DNA of 54,047 nucleotides, from NCBI GenBank assembly GCA_028715345.1, contig JAQUSB010000011.1, forward strand, positions 1-54,047, read 5' to 3'. The notes beneath the pieces are model-generated. The model was given only the letters and a program-made list of their open reading frames with translations, searched no databases and had not been told where the DNA came from. A program made the position numbers and the translations under genes. The stretch comes from Candidatus Omnitrophota bacterium. GTDB lineage: Bacteria; Omnitrophota; Gorgyraeia; 2-01-FULL-45-10. Positions 16,169 to 35,476 of this stretch are shown here, in pieces; position 1 is the stretch's first letter, and each line of letters starts with the position of its first letter.

Positions 16169-16642
16169 ATGCCAAGAGGTAATTGCAGGGGGCAGGGTTG
16201 GTGGCACGGGAAATTTCAGGGATGCGGATATCGGCTTACTGCCGGTAGAGAAGCTATCCTTGATATCTTGTCTAAATCCGAAGGCCATTTAAGCGCCGAA
16301 GATATCTACATGAAAGTCCATCCCAAATATCCTAATGTCGGTCTTACTACTATTTATAGGACATTGGATGTGTTGTCTAATCTTGGTATGGTGTCGAAGC
16401 TTGATTTTGGTGATAGGAGGGCTCGCTACGAATTAGCTGAGGGCCCTAAGGGAGCGCATCATCATCACCATTTAGTTTGTACGGATTGCAACAAAGTGGT
16501 TGATTACACGGATTTCATTGATGATGAGGTAGAGCTTTTGCGAGAAACCGAGAAGGGTTTAGGCGCAAAATACAATTTTAAGATCACAAATCATATTATT
16601 CAATTCTACGGTTTGTGCAATAAATGTAGCGCCAAGAAATAA
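16169..16642 (+). CDS. Fur-family metalloregulator
   Basis: 157 residues. Winged helix: YRLTAGREAILDILSKSEGHLSAEDIYMKVHPKYPNVGLTTIYRTLDVLSNLGMV. Metal sites: the run HHHHH before LVC, CTDCNK and a C-terminal CNKC, i.e. two CxxC pairs for structural zinc. The N-terminus is unusual, with a Gly/Trp/Cys/His-containing extension PRGNCRGQGWWHGKFQGCG before the DNA-binding helix. Flanked by matching operators and followed by ferritin, Fe-S and transporter genes, it likely senses iron or another metal; Fur, PerR and Zur cannot be separated by sequence reading alone. RBS AAGGAG. Confidence 0.88.
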   Translation: MPRGNCRGQGWWHGKFQGCGYRLTAGREAILDILSKSEGHLSAEDIYMKVHPKYPNVGLTTIYRTLDVLSNLGMVSKLDFGDRRARYELAEGPKGAHHHHHLVCTDCNKVVDYTDFIDDEVELLRETEKGLGAKYNFKITNHIIQFYGLCNKCSAKK

Positions 16643-16662
16643 TCGCTATATTTTTTTGTCTT

Positions 16663-16685
16663 TTAATGGAAATAGTTTTCACTAA
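16663..16685 (+). promoter_or_regulatory. second Fur-type operator, upstream of the metal module
   Basis: TTAATGGAAA-TAG-TTTTCACTAA matches the site at 16137 in 19 of 23 positions. It lies 17 nt before the DUF5320 gene and its RBS (GGGAGGTG), so the downstream genes are probably co-regulated with fur. Confidence 0.75.
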
Positions 16686-16702
16686 CAAAAGGGAGGTGTA
16701 AG

Positions 16703-17038
16703 ATGCCGGGTTTTGACGGAACGGGCCCTATGGGGCAAGGCAGTATGACAGGCGGTGGAAGGGGGTATTGTGCGGTTAATTTAAGCGGCACGGTTGCAAG
16801 ACGAGGCGTTGGGCGTGGATTTTTCGCTAGAGGAGGAGGTCGGGGGCATAGGAATTGTTTTTACGCTACAGGCTTGCCGGGATGGATGCGTGCGCAAAAG
16901 GGTATGCAGGCATTTGGCGGGGGCGGGCGTGAGTTATCTAAGGAAGACGAATTGTCTATGTTAAAAGGTCAGGCTGATTATCTTAAGGCTGAACTTGAAG
17001 CGGTGCAAACGAGAGTTCAGGATTTAGAAGCTAAATAA
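16703..17038 (+). CDS. DUF5320 glycine-rich protein
   Basis: 111 residues. The N-terminus MPGFDGTGPMGQGSMTGGG followed by RGYC is the DUF5320 signature; the middle is Gly/Arg-rich with Cys residues; the C-terminus is a short coiled coil (DELSMLKGQADYLKAELEAVQTRVQDLEAK). These proteins habitually sit beside NifX/NifB-like and MinD-ferredoxin genes in anaerobes, as here; molecular role unknown. Confidence 0.85.
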   Translation: MPGFDGTGPMGQGSMTGGGRGYCAVNLSGTVARRGVGRGFFARGGGRGHRNCFYATGLPGWMRAQKGMQAFGGGGRELSKEDELSMLKGQADYLKAELEAVQTRVQDLEAK

Positions 17039-17055
17039 GAAAGGGGAGTAAAAAC

Positions 17056-17433
17056 ATGAGAGTAGGAGTCGTTTTGGAAGATGAGAATGGTGTGCATGGG
17101 AATGTTTGTGCGCATTTTGGGCAATGTAAGTTTTTCTTTTTGGCGGATATCGATCAGGCGAAAAAGAAAATAACAGGCACTCGTATTGTGCCTAATACAG
17201 CTGTGCATGGCGGCGGCGGATGCGTGGCTGTTGATGAGATATTGAAATATAAAATAACCCATGTGATCGCTGGCGGAATGGGCATGGGCGCTCAGCAGAA
17301 ATTCGCACAAGCAGGAGTTCAGGTTTTTGGTTATTCCGGTAACGTGCAAAAAGCCCTTGATGATTTTATGAATAATACCTTGGGCGGACTTGAGGCATGC
17401 AAGGATCATGGGCAAGGAGGAAGTTGCCATTAA
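17056..17433 (+). CDS. NifX/NifB-type dinitrogenase cofactor-binding family protein
   Basis: 125 residues with the Nitro_FeMo-Co fold: MRVGVVLEDE, NVCAHFGQCKFFFLADID, HGGGGCVAVDEIL and THVIAGGMGMGAQQKFAQAGVQVFGYSG. The C-terminus is Cys/His-rich (EACKDHGQGGSCH), which would suit metal or cluster binding. No nitrogenase gene is present, so it probably handles an Fe-S or other metal cluster in a different pathway. RBS AAGGGGAG. Confidence 0.85.
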   Translation: MRVGVVLEDENGVHGNVCAHFGQCKFFFLADIDQAKKKITGTRIVPNTAVHGGGGCVAVDEILKYKITHVIAGGMGMGAQQKFAQAGVQVFGYSGNVQKALDDFMNNTLGGLEACKDHGQGGSCH

Positions 17434-17446
17434 GGAAGGTGATAAT

Positions 17447-17818
17447 ATGAAATTATGTATTACGTCCGAAGGAAAAACTTTAGACGCTAAAGTTGATCCT
17501 CGCTTCGGCCGGTGCCAGAATTTCATTTTTTTCGATACTGATATCGGTAATTTCGAAGCGTGTGAAAATGCGAATGCTCAATTTCAAGGTGGGGCTGGCA
17601 TTCAGTCTGGTCAGCTTGTGGTGTCTAAAGGTGTTAAAGCGGTTCTTACCGGAAACGTGGGCCCTAATGCTCATCAGGTTTTATCTGCGGCGGGGGTCAG
17701 CGTTTTTACCGGTGTTTCAGGAACGGTAAAGGAAGCGGTTGAGAATTATAAGAATGGAAAATACAAATCGGCCGATGCGCCAAACGTCGGTTCAAAATTC
17801 GGCATGCCGAATAAATAA
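17447..17818 (+). CDS. second NifX-type cluster-binding protein
   Basis: 123 residues from ATG 17447 after AAGGAAGGTG; the frame is open upstream to 17390 but overlaps the preceding gene. Motifs: MKLCITSEGKTLDAKVDPRFGRCQNFIFFD, IQSGQLVVSKGVKAVLTGNVGPNAHQVLSAAGV and FTGVSGTVKEAVENYKNGK. This subgroup lacks the Cys-rich tail of its upstream neighbour, so the tandem pair probably has distinct partners. Confidence 0.85.
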   Translation: MKLCITSEGKTLDAKVDPRFGRCQNFIFFDTDIGNFEACENANAQFQGGAGIQSGQLVVSKGVKAVLTGNVGPNAHQVLSAAGVSVFTGVSGTVKEAVENYKNGKYKSADAPNVGSKFGMPNK

Positions 17819-17830
17819 AAGGAGGGTCAA

Positions 17831-18316
17831 ATGGGAACAAAGGGGCGAGAGTTAGTTGGTGCAGATGTCAAAAAGATTGTTACTTTATTAAATAAGGCGT
17901 TTGCTGATGAATGGCTAGCGTATTATCAATACTGGGTTGGAGCAAAAGTTGCACGTGGTCAGATGCGTGGAGCTGTGGCTGGGGAGCTCGAGCAACATGC
18001 GGGCGAAGAACTTAAACATGCGGGTATGCTCACCGAGAGAATTATCCAACTTGGCGGAACACCGATATTGAAACCGGAAGATTGGTATAAGCAGACAAAT
18101 TGCGGTTATGACGCTCCGGAAGATCCATCGGTAAAAACTCTTTTGAAGCAGAATATCAAGGGTGAGCAATGCGCTATTGATGTTTATAAGAAACTTGCGG
18201 ATGCGGTCAAGGACAAGGATGTGATCACGTATCATCTTGCCTTAGAAATTATGGCGGATGAGGTTGAGCATGAGGAGGATTTGGAGTCACTTCTTGAAGA
18301 TATGTCGCAGAAGTAG
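17831..18316 (+). CDS. ferritin-like diiron protein
   Basis: 161 residues, four-helix bundle pattern. Iron-ligand motifs: FADEWLAYYQYW (E), ELEQHAGEELKHAGML (E-x6-E-x2-H type), KGEQCAIDVYKKL (E) and MADEVEHEEDLESLL (E-x2-H). This is the bacterioferritin/DPS-like ferritin arrangement, so it likely stores or oxidises iron or detoxifies peroxide. It follows the NifX pair by 12 nt with a GGAGGG site, in the Fur-flanked cluster. Confidence 0.85.
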   Translation: MGTKGRELVGADVKKIVTLLNKAFADEWLAYYQYWVGAKVARGQMRGAVAGELEQHAGEELKHAGMLTERIIQLGGTPILKPEDWYKQTNCGYDAPEDPSVKTLLKQNIKGEQCAIDVYKKLADAVKDKDVITYHLALEIMADEVEHEEDLESLLEDMSQK

Positions 18317-18322
18317 GTCAAA

Positions 18323-18928
18323 TTGAATAACGAAATATTAGAGAATCACAAGAGGTATTTAGAGCGTAAAGCCCTCTATAAAAGTTTCGGATACGATGTA
18401 GATAAAGAACGGGATTTTATCCTTAAGCAGGCGGAGCCTGTCTCGGGGAGAATCCTTGAGGCCGGAACTGGCAAGGGGCATTTTGCGCTCGCCTTGGCGA
18501 AGGCAGGGTATTCATTTGTTACCTTTGATATCTCTCCGGAAGAACAGCGTTTTGCGAAGCTGAATATCACTCATTTTGGGTTTGATAAACAGGTAGATTT
18601 CAGGATCGAAAACGGAGAGAAAACGAGTTTCCTGTCAGGAAGTTTTGACGTGGTTTTTTCCGTGAATGTCCTGCATCATTTGCGTAACGCCTACCAAGTT
18701 ATCGATGAACTCATCCGGCTCATTTCATCTAATGGCAAATTGATCCTAGCTGATTTTACAGATGAAGGGTTTAAGGTGATGGATAAGATTCACGGGCTTG
18801 AAGGCAATAAGCATGAGGTGCGGGAGGTTACATTATCTGACGCTGAGAATTATTTAGGCAATAAAGGGTTTAAGGTCATCGGGACAAAAAGTATATATCA
18901 AGCTGTCCTTATGGCTGAAAAAAGGTAA
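18323..18928 (+). CDS. class I SAM-dependent methyltransferase
   Basis: 201 residues, TTG start 7 nt after the ferritin stop. Motif I is ILEAGTGKGHFALALAKAG, motif II FVTFDIS, motif IV FDVVFSVNVLHHL; the ending is less conserved. It belongs to the large Methyltransf_11/25 group whose substrates range widely; nothing visible fixes the substrate here. Operon position suggests a service role in the metal module. Confidence 0.8.
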   Translation: MNNEILENHKRYLERKALYKSFGYDVDKERDFILKQAEPVSGRILEAGTGKGHFALALAKAGYSFVTFDISPEEQRFAKLNITHFGFDKQVDFRIENGEKTSFLSGSFDVVFSVNVLHHLRNAYQVIDELIRLISSNGKLILADFTDEGFKVMDKIHGLEGNKHEVREVTLSDAENYLGNKGFKVIGTKSIYQAVLMAEKR

Positions 18929-18937
18929 TGAGTTATT

Positions 18938-19813
18938 ATGATTATTTCAATAGCCAGCGGTAAGGGTGGAACAGGAAAAACAACAGTTGCGGTCAACCTG
19001 GCGCTTTCACTTCAGAATGTGCAGATCCTTGATTGTGATGTTGAGGAGCCGAATGCCCACATCTTCTTAAAACCAAAGATTATTGGGGAGAAGAAGGCTG
19101 TTATTCCTGTGCCGGAAATTGACGAGGCAAAATGCGACTATTGCGGTAAGTGTAGAGAGGTATGCGCCTACCACGCTATTGCGGTCGTACCAGCAAATGA
19201 TGGAAAAAAGGGGAGCGTGTTAATTTTCCCGCATCTTTGCCATGGTTGTGGCGCATGCAGTCTGCTGTGCCCTAAGGGAGCGATTAAGGAGATCGATAAA
19301 GAGATCGGGATTATTGAAACCGGCGAGAAAGAAAACATGATGTTTGTCCACGGCCGTCTTAATGTCGGGGAGGCAATGTCACCCCCTGTTATAAGGCAGG
19401 TGAAGAAGCATATTAACTTGTCAAAAACAGTCATTATTGATGCGCCGCCGGGGACGTCTTGTCCAGTGATCACAGCGGTTAAAGGGAGCGATTTTTGCGT
19501 GCTGGTTACGGAGCCTACGCCTTTCGGGCTCAATGATCTTATTTTGGCGGTTGAGGTATTGCGTAAAATCGAGATTCCCTTCGGGGTGGTCATTAACCGT
19601 GCGGATATTGGCGATGGCAATGTAGAGGACTATTGCGAAAAAGAGAATATCCCTATTTTGATGAAAATTCCTTTTTCCAAAGAAATAGCGGTAAGTTACT
19701 CAGAAGGCATTCCGGTTGTTGAGAGGGATATTTCATATCAGGATAAATTTATTAATTTGTATTTAAACATTTGCGGGATAAAGAATGAAGCAGATAGTTG
19801 TCGTAAGCGGTAA
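18938..19813 (+). CDS. MinD/Mrp-family ATPase with inserted ferredoxin domain, copy 1
   Basis: 291 residues. Deviant Walker A KGGTGKTTVAVN, DCDVEEPNAH, an inserted double 4Fe-4S ferredoxin (CDYCGKCREVCAYHAI and CHGCGACSLLCPKGAI), IDAPPGTSCP and VTEPTPFG. These ATPases occur in pairs in anaerobes beside NifX-type and NifU-like proteins and are thought to load or carry Fe-S clusters, by analogy with Mrp/NBP35. The end overlaps copy 2 by 29 nt. Confidence 0.9.
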   Translation: MIISIASGKGGTGKTTVAVNLALSLQNVQILDCDVEEPNAHIFLKPKIIGEKKAVIPVPEIDEAKCDYCGKCREVCAYHAIAVVPANDGKKGSVLIFPHLCHGCGACSLLCPKGAIKEIDKEIGIIETGEKENMMFVHGRLNVGEAMSPPVIRQVKKHINLSKTVIIDAPPGTSCPVITAVKGSDFCVLVTEPTPFGLNDLILAVEVLRKIEIPFGVVINRADIGDGNVEDYCEKENIPILMKIPFSKEIAVSYSEGIPVVERDISYQDKFINLYLNICGIKNEADSCRKR

Positions 19814-20636
19814 AGGCGGAACTGGCAAAACGGTTGTGACAGGATCTCTTGCCTTCTTAGCGCAAAATAAAATAATGGTGGATTGTGATGTGGATGCGGC
19901 CGATTTGCATTTGCTATTGCATCCGAATGTCAAGGAACGCCGCGAATTCAGAAGCGGACAGACAGCTGTTATTGAAAAGAAGCTCTGCGAAAAGTGCGGG
20001 AAATGCTTATCGGCATGCAAATTCGAGGCGATAAAACCTGATTTCAGTATTGAACCGTTTTCCTGTGAAGGGTGCGGTTTATGCGCTCAGTTATGTCCGT
20101 ATGGCGCAATACGCATGAATGAAAATGTCGCTGGAGAATGGTTTATTTCGGATACACAATATGGGCCCTTTGTTCACGCTAAATTGGGGATCGCTGAGGA
20201 AAATTCAGGCAAACTGGTAGCCAAAATCAGGCAAGTTGCCAAGGAATTAGCCGAGAAAGACAGTCTTGATTATGTAATTATTGACGGGCCTCCGGGTATA
20301 GGGTGCCCGGTTATAGCGTCATTGTCAGGAGTCGACTGCGCATTAATCGTGACGGAGCCGACTCTCTCGGGTTTGCATGACGCTGAGCGTGTTATGGAAG
20401 TAGCTAAACATTTTAATATCCCGGTTAAACTGGTAGTGAATAAGTACGACTTGAATCTTGTAATGACAGAAAAGATTGAAGCGTTTTGTCAGGCAAAAGG
20501 TGTTTTAGTCGTTGGCAGGATCGCTTTCGACAAGGTGGTTGTTCAAGCGCTGGTTGCGGGGAAAACTATTGTTGAGTATGCGGACTGTTTGGCGGGTAAT
20601 GAGGTGAGAAAAATTTGGGAATGTTTAAAGGACTAG
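19785..20636 (+). CDS. MinD/Mrp-family ATPase with inserted ferredoxin domain, copy 2
   Basis: 283 residues, same layout as copy 1: KGGTGKTVVTGS, DCDVDAADLH, ferredoxin motifs CEKCGKCLSACKFEAI and CEGCGLCAQLCPYGAI, IDGPPGIGCP and VTEPTLSGLH. Copies 1 and 2 differ in the switch residue after the Walker A and in the cluster-flanking residues, and in related clusters they probably work as a heterodimer. They overlap, ensuring coupled synthesis. Confidence 0.9.
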   Translation: MKQIVVVSGKGGTGKTVVTGSLAFLAQNKIMVDCDVDAADLHLLLHPNVKERREFRSGQTAVIEKKLCEKCGKCLSACKFEAIKPDFSIEPFSCEGCGLCAQLCPYGAIRMNENVAGEWFISDTQYGPFVHAKLGIAEENSGKLVAKIRQVAKELAEKDSLDYVIIDGPPGIGCPVIASLSGVDCALIVTEPTLSGLHDAERVMEVAKHFNIPVKLVVNKYDLNLVMTEKIEAFCQAKGVLVVGRIAFDKVVVQALVAGKTIVEYADCLAGNEVRKIWECLKD

Positions 20637-20646
20637 GAGGAGTAGG

Positions 20647-21039
20647 ATGGAACATGATAAAGAAGAAGCTCTTGCTGAATATCCCCAAGAGGTTATTGAA
20701 TTAATAAACGACCAAAAATATTTTGGCAGGATGAACGATCCCGTTGCGTCTTCTTACTTGAAGGGCCTCTGCGGTGATGCGATGGAGTTTTATCTATCTA
20801 TCGATAAAGATAAGATCACCGAGATAAAATATTATACCGATGGCTGTCATGCCACTCGGGCATGTGCGGCGATGGCGGCGAAGCTGGCTGACGGTAAGAC
20901 TGTTAAAGAGGCTCTATTGATTTCGGCTGGAGAGGTTATTACGAGGTTGAAAGGTTTGCCGGAAGACCATTTACATTGTTCAATTCTTTCCGTAAGCACT
21001 CTTTATAGGGCGATAGCGGACTATCTGCTTAAGAAGTAA
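20647..21039 (+). CDS. NifU/IscU-like Fe-S scaffold protein
   Basis: 130 residues. Three scaffold cysteines in family positions: GLCGDAMEFYL, DGCHATRACAAM and LHCSILSV, so the IscU-type C...C...C set plus an extra Cys is intact. The IscU chaperone-binding LPPVK-type loop is not evident, as in the divergent NifU-like group of anaerobes. With the two MinD-ferredoxins and NifX proteins it suggests a dedicated Fe-S assembly or delivery path. RBS AGGAGGAG. Confidence 0.88.
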   Translation: MEHDKEEALAEYPQEVIELINDQKYFGRMNDPVASSYLKGLCGDAMEFYLSIDKDKITEIKYYTDGCHATRACAAMAAKLADGKTVKEALLISAGEVITRLKGLPEDHLHCSILSVSTLYRAIADYLLKK

Positions 21040-21048
21040 GGGGATTAA

Positions 21049-21786
21049 ATGAATTTTATCTGGGCATTGGGAGCGAGTATTGTTATAAGCCTGATTTCCT
21101 TTGTGGGGGTTATCAGTCTGCTGTTTAAAGAAAACATACTTAACAAGATTCTCCTTTTATTGATCAGTTTTTCCGCAGGGGCCTTGATCGGAGGCGCATT
21201 TTTACATTTGATACCGGAAGCGGCGGAGCATAACCCTCATAGCGAGGTTTATTTATTCGTAATAGTTGGTTTTATCCTGTTTTTTATTCTTGAGAAATAT
21301 TTGCATTGGCGGCATTGCCATAAGGGCAAGTGCGATATTCACACATTTACGTACCTGAATCTCATTGGAGACGGAGTGCATAATTTCATCGATGGTTTGA
21401 TAATTGGATCTTCTTTTGTAGTCAATGTTAATTTCGGTTTTGCCACGTCATTCGCGATTATTATGCACGAAATACCACAGGAGATTGGGGATTTTGGTGT
21501 TTTGATTTACGGCGGTTTGAACAAAAACAAGGCATTATTTTATAATTTTTTATCCGCACTTACGGCGGTTATAGGTACAGTCATCGGTTATGCGTTAGCG
21601 AACATATCAGATGCTTTTTTGAGATTGCTCATGCCGATGGCGGCCGGAGGTTTTATTTATATAGCGAGTTGTGATTTAATTCCTGAACTGCACAAACAGC
21701 AGGATGTTAAGAAGGCCACTCTTTCAATGGCTGTATTTATTCTTGGCGTGGCATTCATGTATCTTGCGGCAACAATGCATCATTAA
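21049..21786 (+). CDS. ZIP-family metal transporter
   Basis: 245 residues, about eight membrane helices. The ZIP metal-pathway motifs are present: DGVHNFIDGLIIGSSF in helix 4 and IIMHEIPQEIGDFG in helix 5. A His/Cys loop (HWRHCHKGKCDIH) lies in the cytoplasmic segment before helix 4. ZIP proteins bring Zn2+, Fe2+ or Mn2+ into the cytoplasm, so it would supply metal to the module. Start ATG 21049 is 9 nt after the scaffold gene. Confidence 0.9.
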   Translation: MNFIWALGASIVISLISFVGVISLLFKENILNKILLLLISFSAGALIGGAFLHLIPEAAEHNPHSEVYLFVIVGFILFFILEKYLHWRHCHKGKCDIHTFTYLNLIGDGVHNFIDGLIIGSSFVVNVNFGFATSFAIIMHEIPQEIGDFGVLIYGGLNKNKALFYNFLSALTAVIGTVIGYALANISDAFLRLLMPMAAGGFIYIASCDLIPELHKQQDVKKATLSMAVFILGVAFMYLAATMHH

Positions 21787-21790
21787 GCAT

Positions 21791-22501
21791 ATGAAAATAA
21801 AAGTTATCGCTACAGGATCAAGTAAATTCCAGCGTTTCATGCGCAGATGGGGCGTTTCGTTCTTAATCGGCGAGGATGTGTTGTTCGACACCTTTGGAGA
21901 TCCGGGTGTTTTTATGAATAATTTGCCTAAGCTTCAAGTCGATATAGGAAAAATCAAGCACATAGTCTTGTCGCATGATGACTGGGATCATATTGCTGGG
22001 CTATGGTATTTATTGCCTAATCGACAGGATATCACGGTCTATATTTGCCCCGGGTTTAAGAAGGAAATAAAGGAAAGAATCGTTTCTTTCGGTGCAAAGA
22101 TTATCGAGGCGGGACAGTTGATTCAAGTCAGAGAAAATATTTATACCACAGGGGAGCTTTATGGTGAATCAGGCGGCCGTAAGATATATGAACAGTCTGT
22201 TGTGATTAAAGAAAAAAACGGTTTAGCGGTACTCTGTGGGTGCGCTCATCCCGGAGTGGAGAAGATTATCGAGAGAGCCAAGGATAGCTTTAAGACAAAC
22301 ATTTCTTCGCTTATCGGTGGTTTTCATCTTAAAGACAATACAAATGAAGTCAACGGGCGAATTATAAAAGAATTGAATGAAACCGGTATTCGCAGGATTA
22401 TGCCGATGCATTGTACCGGTAAGCGTGCGGTTGAGTTAATACGCCAATCTTTTGGAGAGGGTTTTGCGTGGTTGAAGGAAGGAGACGAAATAGAGTTGTG
22501 A
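21791..22501 (+). CDS. metallo-beta-lactamase-fold hydrolase (COG1237 type)
   Basis: 236 residues from ATG 21791, 4 nt after the ZIP stop. Metal motifs: SHDDWDHIAGL (HxxxDH variant with D in place of the first H), GGFHLKD and MPMHCTGKRA. The pattern matches the dihydropterin ribofuranosyl-aminobenzene phosphate synthase-like MBL subgroup found with Fe-S and DsrE genes in anaerobes. The first HxH histidine reads Asp (H-D-D-x-D-H), so exact metal coordination is uncertain. Confidence 0.82.
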   Translation: MKIKVIATGSSKFQRFMRRWGVSFLIGEDVLFDTFGDPGVFMNNLPKLQVDIGKIKHIVLSHDDWDHIAGLWYLLPNRQDITVYICPGFKKEIKERIVSFGAKIIEAGQLIQVRENIYTTGELYGESGGRKIYEQSVVIKEKNGLAVLCGCAHPGVEKIIERAKDSFKTNISSLIGGFHLKDNTNEVNGRIIKELNETGIRRIMPMHCTGKRAVELIRQSFGEGFAWLKEGDEIEL

Positions 22502-22686
22502 ATAAGATAGTGATTATTGATGAAGATCTGTGCATTGGCTGTGGAGCGTGCGTATCACTTTGTCCTAAGAAAATTTTATATATTGATGAGAAAAGCGGGA
22601 AATGTAAGGTAACTGACGAATCTAAATGCGACCGTTTACGTGGGTGCGTTAAAGTTTGTCCAGTTGACGCTTTGAAAATTATTTAA
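22498..22686 (+). CDS. small 4Fe-4S ferredoxin
   Basis: 62 residues from GTG 22498 overlapping the MBL stop; GGAGA lies about 11 nt upstream. One canonical cluster motif, CIGCGACVSLCPKKI, and a second set CDRLRGCVKVCP, giving a 2x[4Fe-4S]-like layout with an altered first spacing. It likely passes electrons to partners in the operon. The frame is open to ATG 22468, but the upstream residues MVEGRRRNRV are not ferredoxin-like. Confidence 0.85.
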   Translation: MNKIVIIDEDLCIGCGACVSLCPKKILYIDEKSGKCKVTDESKCDRLRGCVKVCPVDALKII

Positions 22687-22701
22687 TTCAGGAGGGTTCA
22701 G

Positions 22702-23022
22702 ATGAAAATAGGAATCATAATTTCAAGCAATGACGCAGAGACGTCTTGGAATGCGCTTCGCTATGCTAACTTCGCACTTGGCCAGAAGGATGAGGTTAAG
22801 GTGTTCTTTATGGGCAAGGGTGTGGAATATCAGAGCATAAGTACGGATAAGTTCAACACCGTTGAGCAGACGGAGAAGTTTTTGCAGGCTGGCGGTAAGA
22901 TCCTTGCTTGCGGAACCTGCATTAAATCCCGCAATCAGGAAGGGACGGAAATGTGTCCGATCAATACGATGAAGGATATGTACGAGGTCATCAAAGAAAG
23001 CGATAAGGCGGTCACGTTTTAA
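22702..23022 (+). CDS. DsrE/DsrF-like sulfurtransferase-fold protein
   Basis: 106 residues: MKIGIIISSNDAETSWNALRYANFAL, VKVFFMGKGVE, and the cysteine segment GGKILACGTCIKSRNQEGTEMCP. DsrE family members carry sulfur or bind clusters through such cysteines (here CGTC plus a third Cys). It is the last gene of the Fur-flanked module and is closed by a strong terminator. A decayed relative is at 12421. Confidence 0.85.
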   Translation: MKIGIIISSNDAETSWNALRYANFALGQKDEVKVFFMGKGVEYQSISTDKFNTVEQTEKFLQAGGKILACGTCIKSRNQEGTEMCPINTMKDMYEVIKESDKAVTF

Positions 23023-23812: not shown

Positions 23813-24436
23813 ATGCAAACGTCCACAATAACAAACAAGGAATTAGAAGCCATCCGCGAAATACGCAATTTCATCATGCATGCTGGTCGCATTCCCTCCA
23901 TGCGTGAACTTATGTCTTCTCTAGGATATCGTTCACCTCGTTCCGCTTCGTTGATTGTTAATAAACTAATTGAGAAAGGCATATTGCGTCGCAAGGACGA
24001 TGGAAGTCTGCAATTTATAAAAAGCATAGGGGATGAGAACATCCGTGCTCAAACTATTGATGTCCCTTTGGTTGGAGTCGTTGCCTGTGGCGCTCCCATG
24101 CTTGCCGAAGAAAATATTCAGGCTAAAATACCGGTTAGCACAAAATTAGCCTGTCCACCACATCGTTATTTTCTTCTAAAAGCAAAGGGTGATTCAATGA
24201 ATCAGAAGGGCATCGGTGATGGTGACTTTGTATTGGTTCGTCAGCAAATAAAGGCGCAGAATGGCGATACTGTTGTGGCGTTAATTGATAATGAAGTAAC
24301 TGTTAAAGAATTTCATGCGGCTGGCGATACCGTTGTATTAAAGCCGAGATCAAAAAATAAACAACATCAGCCAATTGTGTTAACAAGGGATTTTCAGATT
24401 CAGGGTGTTGTAGTGGCAACAATTCCGGATATGTAG
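23813..24436 (+). CDS. lexA: LexA-type autocleaving repressor
   Basis: 207 residues. N-terminal winged helix (ELEAIREIRNFIMHAGRIPSMRELMSSLGYRSPRSA), cleavage site VVACGAP with C92-G93, and the S24-type protease dyad S128 (GDSMNQ) and K165 (TVKEF). Dyad spacing of 37 residues matches E. coli LexA. No Shine-Dalgarno precedes ATG 23813, which lies at the expected transcription start, so the message is probably leaderless. It may be the element's own SOS-responsive repressor, since the host would normally carry another. Confidence 0.92.
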   Translation: MQTSTITNKELEAIREIRNFIMHAGRIPSMRELMSSLGYRSPRSASLIVNKLIEKGILRRKDDGSLQFIKSIGDENIRAQTIDVPLVGVVACGAPMLAEENIQAKIPVSTKLACPPHRYFLLKAKGDSMNQKGIGDGDFVLVRQQIKAQNGDTVVALIDNEVTVKEFHAAGDTVVLKPRSKNKQHQPIVLTRDFQIQGVVVATIPDM

Positions 24437-24465: not shown

Positions 24466-25662
24466 ATGTATGATAATGCAGTAGCTGAAAAAATATCGAT
24501 CCAATATAAACAAATCCCTCTTACCGATTTCGCAAGTGTTAATTCAAAAACTAGACTTGATGATTTGAACCTGAATTGGCGCGAAAGAGATCTTCCAGAA
24601 AACGAACGAACAAAACATGTTCACAGACTGCATCCATATATGGGGAAATTCATTCCTCAATTAGTCGAAATCTTTCTTAGAAAATATCAACCTAAATTAG
24701 TTTACGATCCATTCTGTGGCTCTGGAACAACACTTGTTGAAGCAAATATTCTCGGGGTAGATTCAGTCGGCACAGATATTTCTTCATTCAACACTTTGCT
24801 TTCTCAAGTCAAGACGGCAAAATATGATTTAACTTTATTGGAAACGGAATTGAGAGATATTCTGAAAAAATTATATACTTTTAAATATGGCCCCGTCTCT
24901 CCAAAAAATGGAGGTAATGGCCGTTTATCAACCAGCAGTGAATATGTCAAAACATGGTTTTCCCAGACCACGCAAAAAGAATTACTATATTTTAAAGATT
25001 TGATAGATAAGTACACGTATAAAGACTTATTGAAAGTAATTTTATCTCGTTCTGCTCGATCTGCCCGCCTTGTAACGCATTATGATTTGGACTTCCCTAA
25101 AAAACCTCAAATCGAACCATATTTTTGTTACAAACACAATCGTACATGTCAGCCAGTAAACGAAGCCTATAAGTTTTTGTACAGATATACTCTTGATACG
25201 TTAGAACGAATAAAAGAATATGCAAAATTACGAACGGAAGCATTAGTTACAATTTTTCACGATGATTCGCGTGAAGTAAAATTGCCGAAGAGCATTGATA
25301 TGATCTTTACGTCACCGCCCTATCTGGGGCTTATAGATTATCACGATCAGCACAAATATGCTTACGAGCTATTGGGTTTACAAAATAATGAGATGCGGGA
25401 AATTGGCCCCGCAAAAAATGGACAATCGGAACAGGCTCGCAAGGATTATATTAAGGGCATAAATGATGTTCTGTTGCATACCAGAGATTTTATGGTTAAA
25501 AAAGGCCTTGCTCTGATTGTTGTGAACGATAAGTATCATTTGTACAAGGCAGAAGACGTGGGTTTCAAGTCTGTAGGGCGAGTTGATCGTCATGTAAATA
25601 GACGAACTGGCCGACGAGAAGGCGCTTTTTATGAGAGCATTTTAATATGGGAGAAAATATGA
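24466..25662 (+). CDS. type II DNA methyltransferase (TdeIII-like system)
   Basis: 398 residues. SAM motif I DPFCGSGTTLVEA (81-93) precedes the catalytic motif TSPPYLGLIDY (about 281-291), with some 190 residues between them that would hold the target-recognition region. SPPY indicates amino methylation (N4-cytosine or N6-adenine). RBS AGAGGAG. It is directly coupled to the restriction enzyme gene (ATGA overlap), forming a complete AT-rich restriction-modification pair. Target sequence is not derivable by reading. Confidence 0.88.
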   Translation: MYDNAVAEKISIQYKQIPLTDFASVNSKTRLDDLNLNWRERDLPENERTKHVHRLHPYMGKFIPQLVEIFLRKYQPKLVYDPFCGSGTTLVEANILGVDSVGTDISSFNTLLSQVKTAKYDLTLLETELRDILKKLYTFKYGPVSPKNGGNGRLSTSSEYVKTWFSQTTQKELLYFKDLIDKYTYKDLLKVILSRSARSARLVTHYDLDFPKKPQIEPYFCYKHNRTCQPVNEAYKFLYRYTLDTLERIKEYAKLRTEALVTIFHDDSREVKLPKSIDMIFTSPPYLGLIDYHDQHKYAYELLGLQNNEMREIGPAKNGQSEQARKDYIKGINDVLLHTRDFMVKKGLALIVVNDKYHLYKAEDVGFKSVGRVDRHVNRRTGRREGAFYESILIWEKI

Positions 25663-26498
25663 CAGATAAACAAAAAATGAAAGAGGCAATCCAGTCTGTC
25701 ATCAAATCGATGATGGACAGGATTATGCATAAGGTATTAGTCGAGGATCCGTTTATTAAAGAAGACCACAAAGCAGAGAAACCGCTATATGCGGCCCTGG
25801 TGCCGGATGAGATATTCAAGGGATCTCATTTCGAGCGAAGATTTGTTACGCCCTTTGGAAATGTTTGGGAGAAATTAGCCATTGTAGCGGCTAACAATGG
25901 TCTTGGTCATGGCGAGCAAGGCGTATCAATAAAGGGCCAAGTAAATTCAGAACGGTTACGGAGAATTCAAGAGGTTTTGAATACCCTGGAACATTCAGGG
26001 CGAGGCAAGGAAAAAGTGCGGCCCGATTGGAAAAAAGAATTGAAATACATTTTAGAAGGCAAAAGTGAGAAGCTTATCCCCACAACAGTTATTTGCGATG
26101 TTTACGCTGAAGACAAACACAATAATAAAAAATATACTTTTGAGTTAAAGGCCCCTTTGCCTAATAGCGATCAGACGAAGGTCAGCAAAGAAAAAATCTT
26201 GAAACTTTATAGCATGCAACCACTACAAGTCGATGGCGCTTATTATGCGTTGCCTTATAACCCATATGGTAAGCGTACTGATTATGCTTGGGCTTTCCCC
26301 GCTCGCTGGTTTGATATGAAAAACGATGATGTTGTGCTTATCGGCGATGAGTTTTGGGAAAAAATCGGCGGGACAGGAACGTATAAGGCATTCATAAGTG
26401 CCGTGAATGAGATTGGCAAAGATTATAAGGATAGGATTTATAGAGAATTCTTGGGGATAGAACCCCCTAGTGATTTAGAAGAAGGTAAGCTGGATTGA
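25659..26498 (+). CDS. TdeIII-family type II restriction endonuclease
   Basis: 279 residues from ATG 25659, which overlaps the methyltransferase stop and has GGGAG 5 nt upstream; ATG 25647 is the alternative. Segments recalled from TdeIII-like enzymes: FKGSHFERRFVTPFGNVWEKLA, then VICDVYAEDKHNNKKYTFELKAP with a PD-(D/E)xK-like D...ExK, then NSDQTKVSKEKILKLY. The named family cuts GGNCC in Treponema denticola as far as I recall; the specificity here is untested. Confidence 0.75.
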   Translation: MTDKQKMKEAIQSVIKSMMDRIMHKVLVEDPFIKEDHKAEKPLYAALVPDEIFKGSHFERRFVTPFGNVWEKLAIVAANNGLGHGEQGVSIKGQVNSERLRRIQEVLNTLEHSGRGKEKVRPDWKKELKYILEGKSEKLIPTTVICDVYAEDKHNNKKYTFELKAPLPNSDQTKVSKEKILKLYSMQPLQVDGAYYALPYNPYGKRTDYAWAFPARWFDMKNDDVVLIGDEFWEKIGGTGTYKAFISAVNEIGKDYKDRIYREFLGIEPPSDLEEGKLD

Positions 26499-27691: not shown

Positions 27692-27931
27692 ATGGAAGGA
27701 TTATTGACCGTTGAACGGCTTATGACTCATCTCAATCTAAAGCGGAGCCAGATTGATTATCTGGTGAAGAATTGGCTTATTCCGCATTTTCGTCTTCCCA
27801 GCGGAGAGGTAATGTTTCGGGCCTCTGAGGTCGAGATGTGGCTTTATACCTGTCGCGTGCCCTATAACGACAGTAAATTCCGGGCAATACTTAACCAAAT
27901 ACGGACGTGGCGATGCAAACAGCAAGGTTAG
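27692..27931 (+). CDS. AlpA/excisionase-like helix-turn-helix protein
   Basis: 79 residues: LLTVERLMTHLNLKRSQIDYLVKNWLIPHFRLPSGEVMFRASEVEMWLYTCR, the MerR-like HTH_17 pattern. RBS GCGAGGAGG. The 3' end overlaps the prim-pol gene by 25 nt, so the two are translationally coupled. In P4-like and phage-satellite elements such a protein often activates the replication genes or excision. Confidence 0.8.
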   Translation: MEGLLTVERLMTHLNLKRSQIDYLVKNWLIPHFRLPSGEVMFRASEVEMWLYTCRVPYNDSKFRAILNQIRTWRCKQQG

Positions 27932-30249
27932 ATTTTAACAAGATGTCTTTAGTTATTCCGGATGAGATCAGGTCTCAAAAGGCATGGGTGGGCTATGTCA
28001 CCAGAGAGGACAATGGCCGTATTGACAAGATTCCGATGAATGTTATGACCGGCATGCCTGCGAAAAGCAACGATCCTTCAACATGGACTGATTTTGAAAT
28101 GGCTTTAGATTTGGCGATTCAGCGTAATTACGCGGGCATCGGTTTTATGTTTCAACCGCCATATGTGGGCGTGGATATTGACCATTGCGTTAAAGACGGA
28201 GCTATCGAGATGTATGCGTTAGAAATCCTCAAGGCACTTAACTCATATTCCGAGTATTCGCCAAGCGGCACAGGTATTCATACTCTTTGTAAAGGTGAGA
28301 TTCCCCGTGCCTGCAAGATTTCCAAGATCGGCTTGGAGATTTATACCAAGGGCCGATTTTTTACCGTTACCGGTAATCGCCTTGAAAATTATCCGGCTGA
28401 GCTTAATGAATGCACTGATGCGCTTAAAGGCATATTTAGTCGGTTTGTAGATAAAGCTCCCGCGAACGACATTCTATCCTTGATTGCCAATAGCAAAGAC
28501 GCGGAGAGGTTTCAGCGGATCTATTCTGGTCAATGGCAGAACGATTATCCTTCTCAAAGCGAAGCGGATCTGGCGCTCTGCAACAAGCTGGCCTTCTGGA
28601 CAGGTAAAGATGCCGGGCAGATGGACTCGTTATTCAGACAGTCAGGCCTCATGCGGCCCAAATGGGATGAGAAACATTTCAGCGATGGCAAGACTTATGG
28701 TCAGGTGCTCATCGAGAAAGCCAACGAAGGTTGTGAGAACACATTTCAGTCATCGGGTAGCGAATTTAAACATAAACCGACTCAAGGCGAGATCATCACC
28801 CGCGACTGCGAGGAAAACAGCAAAGATTTTTTCCGCGACCAGCACGGTAATTCTATTCTGGTGCTTCCGGTAGACAATCATCTGGAAGTATGCCTAACGA
28901 ACACCTCAAGTTTTCGTAATTGGACAGCTACCCGTTACCGTAAGAGATTCGGGGTGCCTCCCAAGATCGACGCTATCAATCAGGCAAAGGTTCAGCTTGA
29001 GGCGCGGTGCGCCACGTCAAGACAGGTCGAATTATTCAATCGGGTCGGCTGGCATGACAATAAGATCTTCTACGACCTTACTGCGGTTGATCATAAGGGC
29101 GTTGAGGTTTCAGCGTCAGGGTGGCGGGTAACGCAACTTCCGCCGATATTCCGGCGTTATCAACATCAGGTTGAACAGGTCACGCCTGCTCAAGGCGGCG
29201 ACGCTAAAGATTTTTTACGGTTCTGCAATATTGCAGGGGAGGACAGTTGTCTTTTGTTGACGGCAATCGCTTCCTATTTTATCCCGAACTTTCCGCACGT
29301 CATTATCAGCATGACCGGAGAGCAAGGCACTGCCAAATCGAGCAACTCCCGGAAAATCAAAGAATTGGTCGACCCGTCTCGGGTCATACTCACATCAAGC
29401 CCGAAGGAATTAGAGCAAGCGCAACTGACCGCGGACAAGCACTGGGTCTGCGCTTTTGATAATGTCTCGCGCATTCATGACTGGTTCAGTGATTTCTTAT
29501 GTCGCGGCGTTACCGGCGAGGGAGACATGAAACGCTCGCTTTATACCAATGACGATGAGTTTATTCGTTCATACCGCAGGTGTTTTGTCTTAAACGGCAT
29601 CGGTTCAATCATGTATCGGCCGGACCTGCTCGACCGTTCGATTATTTTCGATATTCCGCTTCTCAAAGAATCGTGGCCTGAATCCTTCATTACCGATGAA
29701 TGGAAAAAGTCTTTGCCCGGGATTCTGGGCGGATTCTTAACCGCTGTTTCAAGAGCGATGGGCGTTGTGGCGCAGGTTAGCGGCCATGAGAAGTTTCGCA
29801 TGGCTGATTTTGCCCGGTGGGGCGGCGCTTTGTCTGAAGGATTAGGCTATTCGCGGGATGAATTCTTCTCGAAGTATCAGGAGTCGGTGGACTCAAAGTG
29901 GCAGGATACTGCCGAGGAAAGCACCTTCGCGAAAAAGATCAAAACATTTTTTGAGAGTCATGGCGGTTATTGGGCGGGATCGCCCTCTGAATTGTTGTCG
30001 GAAATCAGCTCTGATGATGACGAGAAAGGAATTCCCAAGACAGCCAAGTGGCTGTCGAACGAGCTTATCAGGATCGCGCCGGTCATGCGTCACGTGGGCA
30101 TCGATATCATAAAAGACAAGCGCCAAGGCGGAACCGGCAGGCGCATATTTATCCTGAAAAAATGCGCGCCACAAAGTCGTGAGGATGGTGTGAGTATCAG
30201 TGAGTTTTGTGAAGATGACAGCGAGGTGGACAGTGATCGGCCATTCTAA
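27907..30249 (+). CDS. primase-polymerase / helicase replication protein
   Basis: 780 residues. The N-terminus (about 1-190) resembles bifunctional prim-pol domains of phages and plasmids: YAGIGFMFQ, VGVDIDHC (divalent metal DxD) and SPSGTGIH, then EIYTKGRFFTVTGN. The C-terminal part has an ATPase: Walker A GEQGTAKSS near 470 and Walker B-like WVCAFDN near 515, then an arginine-finger-like PDLLDRS. Such fusions start replication of phage satellites and integrative elements. GTG 27907 or ATG 27913 may be the start. Confidence 0.82.
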   Translation: MAMQTARLDFNKMSLVIPDEIRSQKAWVGYVTREDNGRIDKIPMNVMTGMPAKSNDPSTWTDFEMALDLAIQRNYAGIGFMFQPPYVGVDIDHCVKDGAIEMYALEILKALNSYSEYSPSGTGIHTLCKGEIPRACKISKIGLEIYTKGRFFTVTGNRLENYPAELNECTDALKGIFSRFVDKAPANDILSLIANSKDAERFQRIYSGQWQNDYPSQSEADLALCNKLAFWTGKDAGQMDSLFRQSGLMRPKWDEKHFSDGKTYGQVLIEKANEGCENTFQSSGSEFKHKPTQGEIITRDCEENSKDFFRDQHGNSILVLPVDNHLEVCLTNTSSFRNWTATRYRKRFGVPPKIDAINQAKVQLEARCATSRQVELFNRVGWHDNKIFYDLTAVDHKGVEVSASGWRVTQLPPIFRRYQHQVEQVTPAQGGDAKDFLRFCNIAGEDSCLLLTAIASYFIPNFPHVIISMTGEQGTAKSSNSRKIKELVDPSRVILTSSPKELEQAQLTADKHWVCAFDNVSRIHDWFSDFLCRGVTGEGDMKRSLYTNDDEFIRSYRRCFVLNGIGSIMYRPDLLDRSIIFDIPLLKESWPESFITDEWKKSLPGILGGFLTAVSRAMGVVAQVSGHEKFRMADFARWGGALSEGLGYSRDEFFSKYQESVDSKWQDTAEESTFAKKIKTFFESHGGYWAGSPSELLSEISSDDDEKGIPKTAKWLSNELIRIAPVMRHVGIDIIKDKRQGGTGRRIFILKKCAPQSREDGVSISEFCEDDSEVDSDRPF

Positions 30250-32346: not shown

Positions 32347-32526
32347 ATGAAAACTTACACCATGACAGAGACGGCAAAGATGCTGGGCGTACACCGGCAG
32401 ACCATGATCAATTGGATCCGCAAGGGTTGGGTCAAGCCCAAGCGGGATTACAAAGACTGGCCGGTGTTCACGGACGAGTGTATCGCCAAGATTAAGGAGT
32501 GGCGTGAGACTTTAAGGGAAGAATAA
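32347..32526 (+). CDS. MerR-like helix-turn-helix protein, probable recombination directionality factor
   Basis: 59 residues from ATG 32347 (GAGGGTG upstream): YTMTETAKMLGVHRQTMINWIRKGWVKPKRDYKDWPVFTDECIAKIKEW, a classic HTH_17 excisionase-type fold. It overlaps the recombinase start by one base (TAATG). Small HTH proteins encoded next to an integrase commonly act as excision factors or as the element's regulator. Confidence 0.82.
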   Translation: MKTYTMTETAKMLGVHRQTMINWIRKGWVKPKRDYKDWPVFTDECIAKIKEWRETLREE

Positions 32527-34211
32527 TGAAGGTAGCGTTATATACGAGAGTCAGCACAGAGGATCAAGCCCGCGAAGGTTTTTCGTTGGAGGTGCAAAGG
32601 ACATATTTATTGCAATACGCGAAAAATTTCGGCTGGGACGTTTTTTGCAGTCTTTCCGGAAAAGAAGTTTATATGGATGATGGCTATTCCGGCGGTAATA
32701 TGGATAGACCGGCACTGCAGAGGCTTCTATTTGACGCCCGCAATAAGCAGTTTGATTTAGTGCTGGTGTATAAGCAGGATCGCCTAAGCCGTCGGCTTAA
32801 GGATCTTTTAGGATTGCTCGAGGAATTTGAGTCGATCGGCATTGGTTACAAGTCAGCTACCGAGCCGTTTGATACGACATCCAGTGCCGGTAAAATGGCA
32901 ATCCAAATGCTCGGTAGTTGCGCGGAGTTTGAACGAAACCGTTTGGTTGAGCGCGTGTTCCCGGGTATGGTGGTCGGCGTTAAGCGCGGGCATTGGCAGG
33001 GCGCCCGCTACGCGCCGTATGGCTACCGCTATAATAAGGAAGCCAAAAAGCTGGAAGTTCACGCGGATGAGGCGAAGATCGTCAAAGAGATTTTCTCGAT
33101 GTATATAAATGGCAAGAGCACTTCGCAGATTGCCGGATATTATTATCATCTCGGGATTCCCTCAAGGCAGGGCGGAAAGTTTTATACTAAATTCATCTCT
33201 GATATTCTTAAGAATAAAGTGTATTTGGGAATGCTGGTCTGGAATAAGCGGCGTTACGATACAAAGAATAAGACTAAAAATGGCGAGGGGAAAGGGTATT
33301 GCTATATCAAGAATGATCCATCCAAGATCATCGAGGTCCCGAATACGCACGAGCCGATTATTTCGCAAAGGGAGTTTGACGAGGCTTCCACGCTTCTCAA
33401 ACGAAACCGCACAAATGGCGTAGTCCGGTTTCGCAATAACGTTTATCATCTCTCCGGTATCTTAAAATGCAATGAATGCGGCGGCAATTATCGCGGGATG
33501 ACGCATATCGTTAATCATCGAACAAAGATGAGGCGTCCGTGGTATAGGTGTTCGTCCAGAGGGATTCGGTACATTAAGTGCAACAATAAATCCGTGACTG
33601 CTGATGCTATCAATAAGCAGGTCTGGGATATCGTTGAAGTCATTAGAAAAAATCTTCACGTGCTGGAAGAATTAGGCGACATGATTCGGCTTAACGCTTC
33701 TGAGCCGGAGAGGGTATATGTGGAACAGTTGGAGGAGAAGGAAACGCTTCTTAAAAAGAACGTGGAGAAGCAAAGGGCTATATACGAATTATTTTCAGAA
33801 GACAAAATAAATATGGGGCTCTATAAAGACAGAGCCGAGCTTTTAAGTAATGAGGAGAAAAAACTAAAGCAGGATATCAAGGCCATTCATCTTAAGATTC
33901 TGGATAAGCGCAATTCCGTCAATCTGGTTAAGGCGACGCAGGATTTTCTTTTGAGGTTGCGCAGTACGCCCGAAAGCGACAATCACCAATTGGACTACCT
34001 TATAAAGACGTTCATGCGGATTGTCTTTAAGTCGATTACTATCCAGAATCAGGAGATCGTGAAATTTGAGTTGAATGAGCCTTGGAAGACTTGCTATGAA
34101 GAGGGGATGAAATGGTTGAAAACGAGCGAAAAGACGACAATACAGGCGACTCCGGAGGCAAAAGCCCGAAGAAGTTACGTGTGCTTTTGCGTACCTTCGG
34201 ATGTCAGATGA
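32526..34211 (+). CDS. large serine recombinase (site-specific integrase)
   Basis: 561 residues. Resolvase domain with catalytic S10 (YTRVSTEDQ), MDRPALQRLL and VYKQDRLSRRLKDLL; recombinase domain (YAPYGYRYNKE, GKSTSQIAGYYYHLGIPSRQGG); a zinc ribbon (CNECGGNYRG, YRCSSRG, KCNNK) and a coiled coil around 390-450. Such enzymes insert DNA without host factors at attB. Its last 100 nt overlap miaB, and its TGA stop (34209-34211) uses bases of the miaB coding sequence, so the insertion site is the miaB 5' end. Confidence 0.93.
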   Translation: MKVALYTRVSTEDQAREGFSLEVQRTYLLQYAKNFGWDVFCSLSGKEVYMDDGYSGGNMDRPALQRLLFDARNKQFDLVLVYKQDRLSRRLKDLLGLLEEFESIGIGYKSATEPFDTTSSAGKMAIQMLGSCAEFERNRLVERVFPGMVVGVKRGHWQGARYAPYGYRYNKEAKKLEVHADEAKIVKEIFSMYINGKSTSQIAGYYYHLGIPSRQGGKFYTKFISDILKNKVYLGMLVWNKRRYDTKNKTKNGEGKGYCYIKNDPSKIIEVPNTHEPIISQREFDEASTLLKRNRTNGVVRFRNNVYHLSGILKCNECGGNYRGMTHIVNHRTKMRRPWYRCSSRGIRYIKCNNKSVTADAINKQVWDIVEVIRKNLHVLEELGDMIRLNASEPERVYVEQLEEKETLLKKNVEKQRAIYELFSEDKINMGLYKDRAELLSNEEKKLKQDIKAIHLKILDKRNSVNLVKATQDFLLRLRSTPESDNHQLDYLIKTFMRIVFKSITIQNQEIVKFELNEPWKTCYEEGMKWLKTSEKTTIQATPEAKARRSYVCFCVPSDVR

Positions 34212-35476
34212 ACATGCGGGATTCGGAGTATGTGATGGGGATACTCATGGACCGCGGGTTCCGGAAGGCGAAGTCTGCCGACGAGGCCGATGTTATTATC
34301 TTTAATTCCTGCTCGGTGCGCAAACACGCCGAGGATAAGTTGTTCAGCAATATCGGCGATCTGTGGAAGCTTAAAAAACGAAAACCTGGGCTCGTGATCG
34401 GCCTTATGGGCTGTACGGCCCAGAGTTATAAAGACGCGGCGCTGGAGAGGGCGCCGCTGCTCGATTTTGTCTGCGGGACGGGGAATGAGAGCGACCTGCC
34501 TGCGATCATCGGCGACATACTGAAAGACAGGTGCCGTATGGTGGCCGCCGATAAGGTCAATGAAAAGAAGCACGAGATTTTTCCCGCTTACCGCGACGAG
34601 ACATTCAAGACATTTGTTTCGATAGGCGAAGGATGCAATAATTTTTGTTCATATTGCATAGTGCCGTATGTGCGCGGGAAAGAACGCTCACGCGATGCCA
34701 AGGACATAATCCGCGAGATAGATGATCTCGGCTCGCGGGGTTTTAAAGAGGTGATGCTCCTCGGACAGAATGTCAATTCGTACGGCCGCGGCGAGGGGAC
34801 CGATTTTGTAAAACTGCTCTGCGAGATAAATAAACTCAAGGGCATCGAGCGCATCCGTTTCATGACGAGCCACCCTAAGGACGCGTCGATAAAGTTATTC
34901 GAAGCGATGCGTGACCTCGATAAAGTTTGCGAACATCTCCACCTGCCGCTTCAGTCGGGCTCCGACAGGATACTGAAGCTCATGAACCGCAAATATACCG
35001 TCAAGGATTACCTGAAATTGGCCGAGAGCTACAGGAAAATACTGCCGCAGGGCGCTATCACCACCGATATAATAGTAGGTTTCCCATCGGAGACGGAGAA
35101 GGACCTCAAAGAAACCGTAAAGGTCATGAAGGCGGCGGGCTTCGACAGCGCCTACACCTTCAAATATTCGCCCAGGCCGCCGGCCAGATCGTGCAAATTG
35201 AAAGACAATGTATCGGAAGCGCTCAAAGATAAAAGATTGAAGACTATTATGGATATTCAGTGTAGAATAGCTGAAGATATCAACGCGCGCTTGATCGGGC
35301 AGCCGGCCGGGATCCTTGTGGACGGCTGCGGAAGTAAGGATCCGCGTAAACTTACCGGAAGGACGCGCACGAATAAAGTGGTTGTATTCGACGGGCGACC
35401 GGATCTCGTCGGTAAATTTGTCGATGTTAAGATATTATCGGCTACGCCGTATGCATTGAAAGGAAAGATCGTATGA
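34112..35476 (+). CDS. miaB: tRNA-2-methylthio-N6-dimethylallyladenosine synthase
   Basis: 454 residues. N-terminal MTTase domain LRTFGCQMNMRDSE with Cys ligands (FGCQMN, FNSCSV, MGCTAQ), radical-SAM motif CNNFCSYCIVPYVRG, HLHLPLQSGSDRILKLMNRKY, and a TRAM domain at the end. Adds a methylthio group to i6A37 of tRNA, the product of MiaA encoded two genes later. The first 26 residues or so (ENERKDDNTGDSGGKSPKK) are non-homologous and come from the recombinase 3' end, as do the RBS GAGGGG and ATG 34112. The protein should still be functional. Confidence 0.92.
   Translation: MVENERKDDNTGDSGGKSPKKLRVLLRTFGCQMNMRDSEYVMGILMDRGFRKAKSADEADVIIFNSCSVRKHAEDKLFSNIGDLWKLKKRKPGLVIGLMGCTAQSYKDAALERAPLLDFVCGTGNESDLPAIIGDILKDRCRMVAADKVNEKKHEIFPAYRDETFKTFVSIGEGCNNFCSYCIVPYVRGKERSRDAKDIIREIDDLGSRGFKEVMLLGQNVNSYGRGEGTDFVKLLCEINKLKGIERIRFMTSHPKDASIKLFEAMRDLDKVCEHLHLPLQSGSDRILKLMNRKYTVKDYLKLAESYRKILPQGAITTDIIVGFPSETEKDLKETVKVMKAAGFDSAYTFKYSPRPPARSCKLKDNVSEALKDKRLKTIMDIQCRIAEDINARLIGQPAGILVDGCGSKDPRKLTGRTRTNKVVVFDGRPDLVGKFVDVKILSATPYALKGKIV
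34190..34210 (+). other. putative attR core inside miaB
   Basis: TGCGTACCTTCGGATGTCAGATG (34188-34210) encodes RTFGCQM. It aligns with the miaB fragments: fragment 1 has TTTGGTTGCCAGATG and fragment 4 has TTCGGTTGGCCGATG. The element-to-host switch is expected at or near CAGATG. Half-site symmetry was not tested. Confidence 0.55.

Follow-up and report, generated by a model that had tools for sequence, protein, structure and literature searches.

Integration inside its own recombinase gene may rebuild the host miaB start and shorten the recombinase in an Omnitrophota element

In the window, by which we mean the whole stretch of DNA analysed, an entire 54-kb contig of a 1.6-Mb, 65-contig genome of Omnitrophota type, the host gene miaB opens inside the coding sequence of a large serine recombinase. 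How does a tRNA-modification gene come to start within a recombinase gene, and what does this do to each of the two proteins? Comparison of related sequences makes it very probable that the attachment site attP lies in the recombinase gene, and that crossover at a TG dinucleotide rebuilds miaB and strips the recombinase of a C-terminal tail; in addition, we infer a functional rebuilt MiaB and a switch role for the tail.

Overlap, crossover point and displaced starts

The recombinase and miaB ORFs overlap by 100 bases in different frames, with the following features.

32526..34211, + strand: large serine recombinase gene, 561 aa (Pfam PF00239/PF07508/PF13408; PHROG integrase)
34101..34106, + strand: GAGGGG, ribosome-binding-site-like tract built of recombinase codons (sequence; purine-rich tract in most of 40 related junctions)
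34112..34203, + strand: dual-coded left arm (P-left), comprising the recombinase frame, the first 30 MiaB codons and the TG of the Cys codon (substitution pattern)
34112..35476, + strand: host miaB, its 5' end element-made (MVENERKDDNTGDSGGKSPKKLRVLLRTFG joined to CQMN...; UPF0004, Radical_SAM and TRAM domains)
34202..34203, + strand: putative crossover dinucleotide TG (attR), within the MiaB Cys31 codon TG/T (seven near-identical elements compared)
34209..34211, + strand: recombinase stop TGA, from host MiaB codons CAG ATG AAC read out of frame (same place in the miaB junctions listed)

The recombinase carries Resolvase, Recombinase and zinc ribbon domains by Pfam, its fold matches solved serine integrases (Foldseek), and its integrated form ends in ...CFCVPSDVR followed by the stop. 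Residues R8, S10, R61, R86 and R89 (L083 numbering) were invariant in the 35 family members compared, and S10 is presumably the catalytic nucleophile. The MiaB frame comprises 454 codons opened by the ATG at 34112, and the next MiaB-like matches in its own genome, among those listed, were only 33-34% identical. An earlier note on this DNA had taken both GAGGGG and this ATG for recombinase codons, and both can indeed be read directly in the sequence; the recombinase TGA, as it had also proposed, is host sequence, derived from the MiaB Gln-Met-Asn codons, and lies 19 nt past the T of TFGC in every miaB junction listed. The earlier note further suggested that miaB expression would be tied to the element; scanning of 31650-34300 for consensus promoters gave no more matches than in shuffled sequence.

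The crossover point was located by comparison of elements. Recombinases 88-97% identical to that of the window lie 5' of miaB elsewhere, including in the complete chromosome of Ca. Velamenicoccus archaeovorus LiM, and elements near-identical to the window's in other Omnitrophota are the same up to ...ACCTTCGGATG, with host sequence beyond. When seven such elements were aligned at the junction, they were nearly invariant over the 40 bases ending in GGATG, while from base +1 onward the sequence tracked the host, identity to the window falling from 95-98% on the left to 48-61% on the right over 100 bases. The TG, with which the MiaB cysteine codon TGY begins, is all that the two sides have in common at the change-over, the displaced starts described below deviating at base -3 (GGTTG); this minimal sharing fits the 2-bp crossover of serine integrases. 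These comparisons point to a 2-bp TG crossover between short, dissimilar attP and attB sites, as would characterize a serine integrase. Integration had earlier been placed at CAGATG, which was rejected as the core because GGATG is fixed, whereas base +1 and the Gln codon's third base differ from host to host; the crossover falls immediately to its left, at 34202-34203. CAGATG is also found at 11603 because the right arm of an older element happens to share it.

A scan of the same genome for the DNA of the MiaB motif retrieved two further sites, an exact match at 11591-11608 and a close one at 16009-16026, both preceded by a short miaB start. These sites, and the main genes of the element, are listed below.

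11570..11599, + strand: oldest displaced miaB start, MRKVFIKTFG (resembles the start MKKIFLKTFG of element-free G002)
11600..11666, + strand: TG junction and right arm of a second, older element, with tail ARWVRCYKPLLQFLAGTYNKG and stop (related arm in L083 and G051 contig 6, ARWRQCYIPILQLLGDVHMKA and stop)
15976..16017, + strand: displaced miaB start MKKNKPSLYIKTFG, used before the present element inserted (joined flanks give MKKNKPSLYIKTFGCQMNMRDSEY)
16018..16019, + strand: putative far-end crossover TG (attL) of the present element (att scan; same right arm in LiM and G057)
16019..16084, + strand: right arm (P-right), encoding the excised-form recombinase tail GRCLPYRHSMADLAEALTGDG and stop (same tail on recombinase ORFs at LiM and G057 tandem junctions)
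16169..23022, + strand: cargo, namely Fur, DUF5320, two NifX-like, ferritin, methyltransferase, two Fe-S Mrp-type ATPases, NifU-like, ZIP transporter, MBL-fold and DsrE
23813..24436, + strand: LexA-like S24 repressor
24466..26498, + strand: restriction-modification pair (N6_N4_Mtase, RE_TdeIII)
27907..30249, + strand: NrS-1-like primase-polymerase (PF22763, E=2.8e-30; PHROG primase)

The displaced starts encode 10 residues (11570) or 14 (15976), and element-free relatives (G002 and most others) have short starts such as MKKIFLKTFGCQMN with no recombinase upstream, a few relatives (e.g., G001 and G023) having longer miaB starts of another kind. The short starts of G002 and most element-free relatives, together with the displaced starts, therefore indicate that the N-terminal tail of the window's MiaB is not native. 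The earlier note had called this tail non-native and suggested examining miaB N-termini lacking the element; the same-genus G002, with its tailless start, and the old starts at 11570 and 15976 bear this out. Its size, put at about 26 residues, needs correction: the element supplies MiaB codons 1-30 and two bases of codon 31, a net extension of 20 residues relative to the oldest displaced start. The junction comparison and the displaced starts also agree with the proposal that miaB was interrupted at its 5' end and repaired, in one step, from within the recombinase ORF.

The element proper extends over 16020-34203, about 18.2 kb. Its far end was assigned to the 16018 junction because the 97%-identical elements of LiM and G057 carry this type of right arm, 18-19 kb upstream of miaB; since these elements end with that arm, a single element of 11.6-34.2 kb was rejected. 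The simplest reading of the older junctions would be repeated insertion at the miaB that was functional at the time, the previous start being pushed upstream on each occasion; LiM and G057, with two tandem recombinase elements each, present the same picture. A single recombinase gene was found among the ORFs scanned in 16020-34203, and no capsid/terminase or conjugation genes among the main ORFs scanned there; in viral contigs, the left arm was found in one contig only and the right-arm pattern in none. The cargo at 16169-23022 resembles an iron/Fe-S island (Fur, NifX-like, Mrp-type ATPase, NifU-like, ZIP). Direct repeats of 62 nt (74%), at 23097-23158 and 31801-31862, flank the core of the element, and ~230 bp from 23097 are 86-90% conserved between elements.

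Recurrence in Omnitrophota and selection on the overlap

The sample consisted of 384 Omnitrophota genomes, one per species, many of them fragmented. At E<=1e-60, 40 recombinase genes were found in 37 of these genomes, and 31 of the 40 run into miaB with the same frame relation and stop position, one such miaB being broken (L121). Three lead into a tandem junction (the second copy in LiM, G199, and G051 contig 6), whereas one, a 40%-identical relative (L129, G275 contig 14), runs into an mtaB-like gene (MRVKFLTLGCKVNQYETQ), which may be read as a target switch between methylthiotransferase paralogues via the same TGY codon. The remaining five are partial, degenerate or unclassed; the G052 gene, interrupted by TAG, also lies 5' of miaB. 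Each of the 40 distinct junctions examined has a start codon that opens the MiaB frame, between 11 and 41 codons ahead of the Cys, with a purine-rich tract 5' of the start in most. The overlap of the recombinase gene with miaB is not due to chance.

Upstream of the overlap, differences at recombinase codon positions 3, 1 and 2 numbered 249, 99 and 49, respectively, and over the 11 codons that precede the crossover those at MiaB positions 1, 2 and 3 numbered 113, 69 and 221; all such counts pool related sequences, so that the events are not independent. MiaB position 3 is recombinase position 2 in the overlap, and the MiaB wobble peak found here therefore indicates that the left arm is read and selected as MiaB. 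The rebuilt MiaB would thus be functional, an interpretation that selection on its frame supports. In AlphaFold models the confident recombinase fold ends at about residue 535, and the dual-coded stretch is of low confidence or disordered. Judging from these models, this stretch is probably a flexible linker, which would make dual coding tolerable.

The recombinase tail, its possible role and known systems

In several places the left arm is joined to a right arm and not to miaB, namely at tandem junctions in LiM, G057, L130 and G051 contig 6, and in the free-looking L083. In these joins the recombinase ORF extends by ~21 codons (about 50 in G051 contig 6), the tail of ~21 residues following the pattern x-x-W-x3-4-Y-x3-[LM].... 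L083 was rejected as a proven circle, since it has no terminal repeat and may be a tandem junction. In G051 contig 6 (L135), the recombinase gene is followed by a predicted ORF of 457 aa that resembles membrane proteins and may be related to conjugation.

The right-arm pattern was found at 57 sites in 47 of the 384 genomes, as against one in a backwards control, and most of the 30 loci that were read paired a miaB-type start, on the left, with a right-hand tail of about 17-25 residues (e.g., GRWPIYSKSMMSLASALVE, GQWQDYSNAMRSLAEAILG and GRCPPYRRTMASLAEALVGAD, each ended by a stop). In the distal half of the tail, the differences, pooled as above, numbered 337, 186 and 501 at recombinase codon positions 1, 2 and 3, and the same residues were encoded by differing codons; this codon-position pattern and the mixed codons therefore argue that the tail is protein-coding. 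Other arms (ARWVRCYKPLLQFLAG, DQWVQYYTTILEFLNM, DEWLNAYKMVLCFLKEL) have the same aromatic/hydrophobic spacing. Beside miaB, the tail is replaced by Ala/Val, Arg/Lys and a stop, because the invariant MiaB codons CAR ATG AAY hold TGA in the recombinase frame. DNA binding could account for part of the tail's conservation near the core, and AlphaFold placement of the tail was of very low confidence.

The mechanism that we propose would operate as follows. attP would lie within the 3' part of the element's own large serine recombinase gene, and attB within the codons of the conserved MiaB motif T-F-G-C-Q-M-N, with strand exchange at the TG of the Cys codon. The left attP arm would provide a ribosome-binding-site-like tract, a start and an in-frame N-terminus ending in TFG plus TG, out of frame in the recombinase ORF. 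Upon integration, the old miaB start would be detached and that of the element attached, leaving the MiaB frame intact; the host Gln-Met-Asn codons, out of frame, would become the new recombinase stop; and the right attP arm would move to the far end together with the ~21-residue tail, so that the integrated recombinase lacks it. Later insertions would target the newly rebuilt miaB, leaving the older starts upstream as ordered fossils. The tail itself may act as a state switch, in that the free-form recombinase would be integration-proficient, and loss of the tail would either lock the integrated state or make excision need another factor.

Direction control in serine integrases is a long-standing question, the usual answer to which is a separate factor. 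In known serine integrases, the C-terminal zinc/coiled-coil region is where directionality factors act (PMC5814800), and integrase-RDF structures have been solved; a C-terminal tail is therefore well placed. We favour the reading that the tail supports integration and that its loss stabilises the integrated state. It is more tentatively, at somewhat less than even confidence, that we suggest a serine recombinase sensing its own integration state, the functional tail being swapped for a host stop and the host gene given a new start, so that the free and integrated recombinases differ and directionality arises without, or alongside, a separate factor.

The overlap could instead be passive, attP merely lying at the 3' end of the recombinase gene, with the tail reflecting conservation of the att site as DNA, MiaB repair being all that is selected, and no switch. 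Indeed, the tail begins no farther out than an att site usually extends, and the integrated recombinases retain all LSR domains and may be fully active without it. We nonetheless regard this reading as unlikely, given that tail conservation continues past +30, with third positions varying and identical residues encoded by different codons, and that unrelated right arms (GRW, ARW and D-x-W types) retain the W/Y/hydrophobic spacing, mostly in a frame of ~21 codons.

The main functional rival to the tail switch is suggested by analogy. Mycobacteriophage BPs has attP in its repressor gene, the longer viral repressor being degraded and the truncated prophage form stable (PMC4557955); as in BPs, integration of the present element shortens a C-terminus and the protein reports the integration state, but the shortened protein is the recombinase rather than a repressor, and the host gene is rebuilt as well. 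Following the logic of BPs gp33 (PMC4557955), the tail could be a signal for degradation or auto-inhibition that limits the recombinase in the free, possibly replicating form. Many tails do have small or hydrophobic residues at their ends (VGAL and ILG, for example); others, however, end in GAD, LVE, GDG or MKA, an ssrA-like consensus was not found in the tails, and the recombinase is needed by the free form, all of which leaves this role slightly less probable than the passive one.

Joining of the recombinase and miaB by homologous recombination or ordinary gene fusion, for which short similarity between the arms around TTYGGNTG might be invoked, is highly improbable, since the change-over is precise to one dinucleotide across different hosts, with no scattered junctions seen, the far-end and tandem junctions match, and the recombinase family is a dedicated one. 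An assembly or annotation artefact of the metagenome bin, conceivable in that the genome is in 65 contigs, of which the window is one, can practically be dismissed, as the same structure occurs in the complete LiM chromosome and in many independent assemblies.

The proposed self-shortening by integration can be set against several known systems. The SXT/R391 elements and the dusA islands use tyrosine integrases. IMEVchUSA3 resides in the 5' coding end of dusA, where it restores the dusA frame and provides a promoter (PMC8409611, PMC4482086), and the SXT/R391 ICEs occupy the 5' end of prfC and give it a new N-terminus, according to the citation of Hochhut & Waldor 1999 in PMC8409611. The window element likewise appears to insert in a host 5' coding region and supply a new N-terminus, dusA also being a tRNA-modification gene; unlike those islands, it relies on a serine recombinase, places the new start within the recombinase ORF but in a different frame, and deprives the recombinase of its tail upon integration. 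In the archaeal suicidal integrases (SSV1, pTN3, pT26-2), which belong to the tyrosine family, attP lies in the integrase gene, which is split into inactive halves, and self-disrupting recombinases have been termed exclusively archaeal (PMC8371274). The Omnitrophota recombinase gene similarly contains attP and is altered by integration, but this bacterial serine recombinase remains complete in its domains, its loss being limited to about 21 residues at the C-terminus. SCC elements have large serine Ccr recombinases, occupy the 3' end of the RNA-modification gene rlmH, carry R-M and replication genes, and form tandem composite arrays. The present elements share with them a large serine recombinase, an RNA-modification target, R-M and replication genes and tandem arrays, and differ in targeting the 5' end of miaB with replacement of its start, with no ccr or rlmH 3' insertion.

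The open-access literature yielded no description of any bacterial serine recombinase replacing a host 5' end or having attP in its gene, or doing both in one overlap, and none of miaB as such a target, one paper giving the MiaB-like rimO as a target; this is weak evidence of absence. Thus, element-made N-termini are known, while a dual-coded serine recombinase that truncates itself appears to be new. About 90 bp would here couple recombinase self-truncation with dual coding and the repair of a host gene, and a direction switch may be built into the att site. The arrangement would explain why elements concentrate at miaB (once mtaB) 5' ends in a phylum that has received little study, and the displaced starts offer a readable fossil order of insertions. 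In practice, automated annotation of Omnitrophota will place MiaB starts and recombinase ends wrongly, and the arms are natural att pairs for a new LSR clade.

Other start relics and att modules

Two further relics were noted in the window, decay being presumed for both.

12334..12357, + strand: start/att relic KIFLKTFG/RP, with CG in place of the core TG, following a one-gene GNAT segment
15200..15229, + strand: start/att relic MNKKVFIKTL, after a hairpin

Between successive miaB-start relics lie a GNAT gene (11766-12329), an AIRS/SelD-like group (12570-15148) and a PEMT-type methyltransferase (15258-15938), all without a recombinase; they are possibly non-autonomous cassettes moved in trans. 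Comparable att-bounded intervals of 1-3 kb also occur in G009 contig 12 and G051 contig 6. A hairpin followed by GTTGTGGATAAC (DnaA-box-like) is present at 13715-13769 and 15159-15213, and also directly 5' of miaB in L024, in a genome of another family.

The longer miaB starts of G001 and G023 (L004 and L020), which belong to two genera, contain a palindromic, in-frame insertion with 86-94% similarity that stops 35 bases before the TG. They were rejected as recombinase-less cassettes, since the similarity ends at -35 and not at the TG and the segment is palindromic; this start segment is probably a separate palindromic insertion. Lastly, L097 (G052) and L103 (G058 contig 1) contain att modules in both orientations, some of them back to back, which suggests recombinase-mediated inversions.
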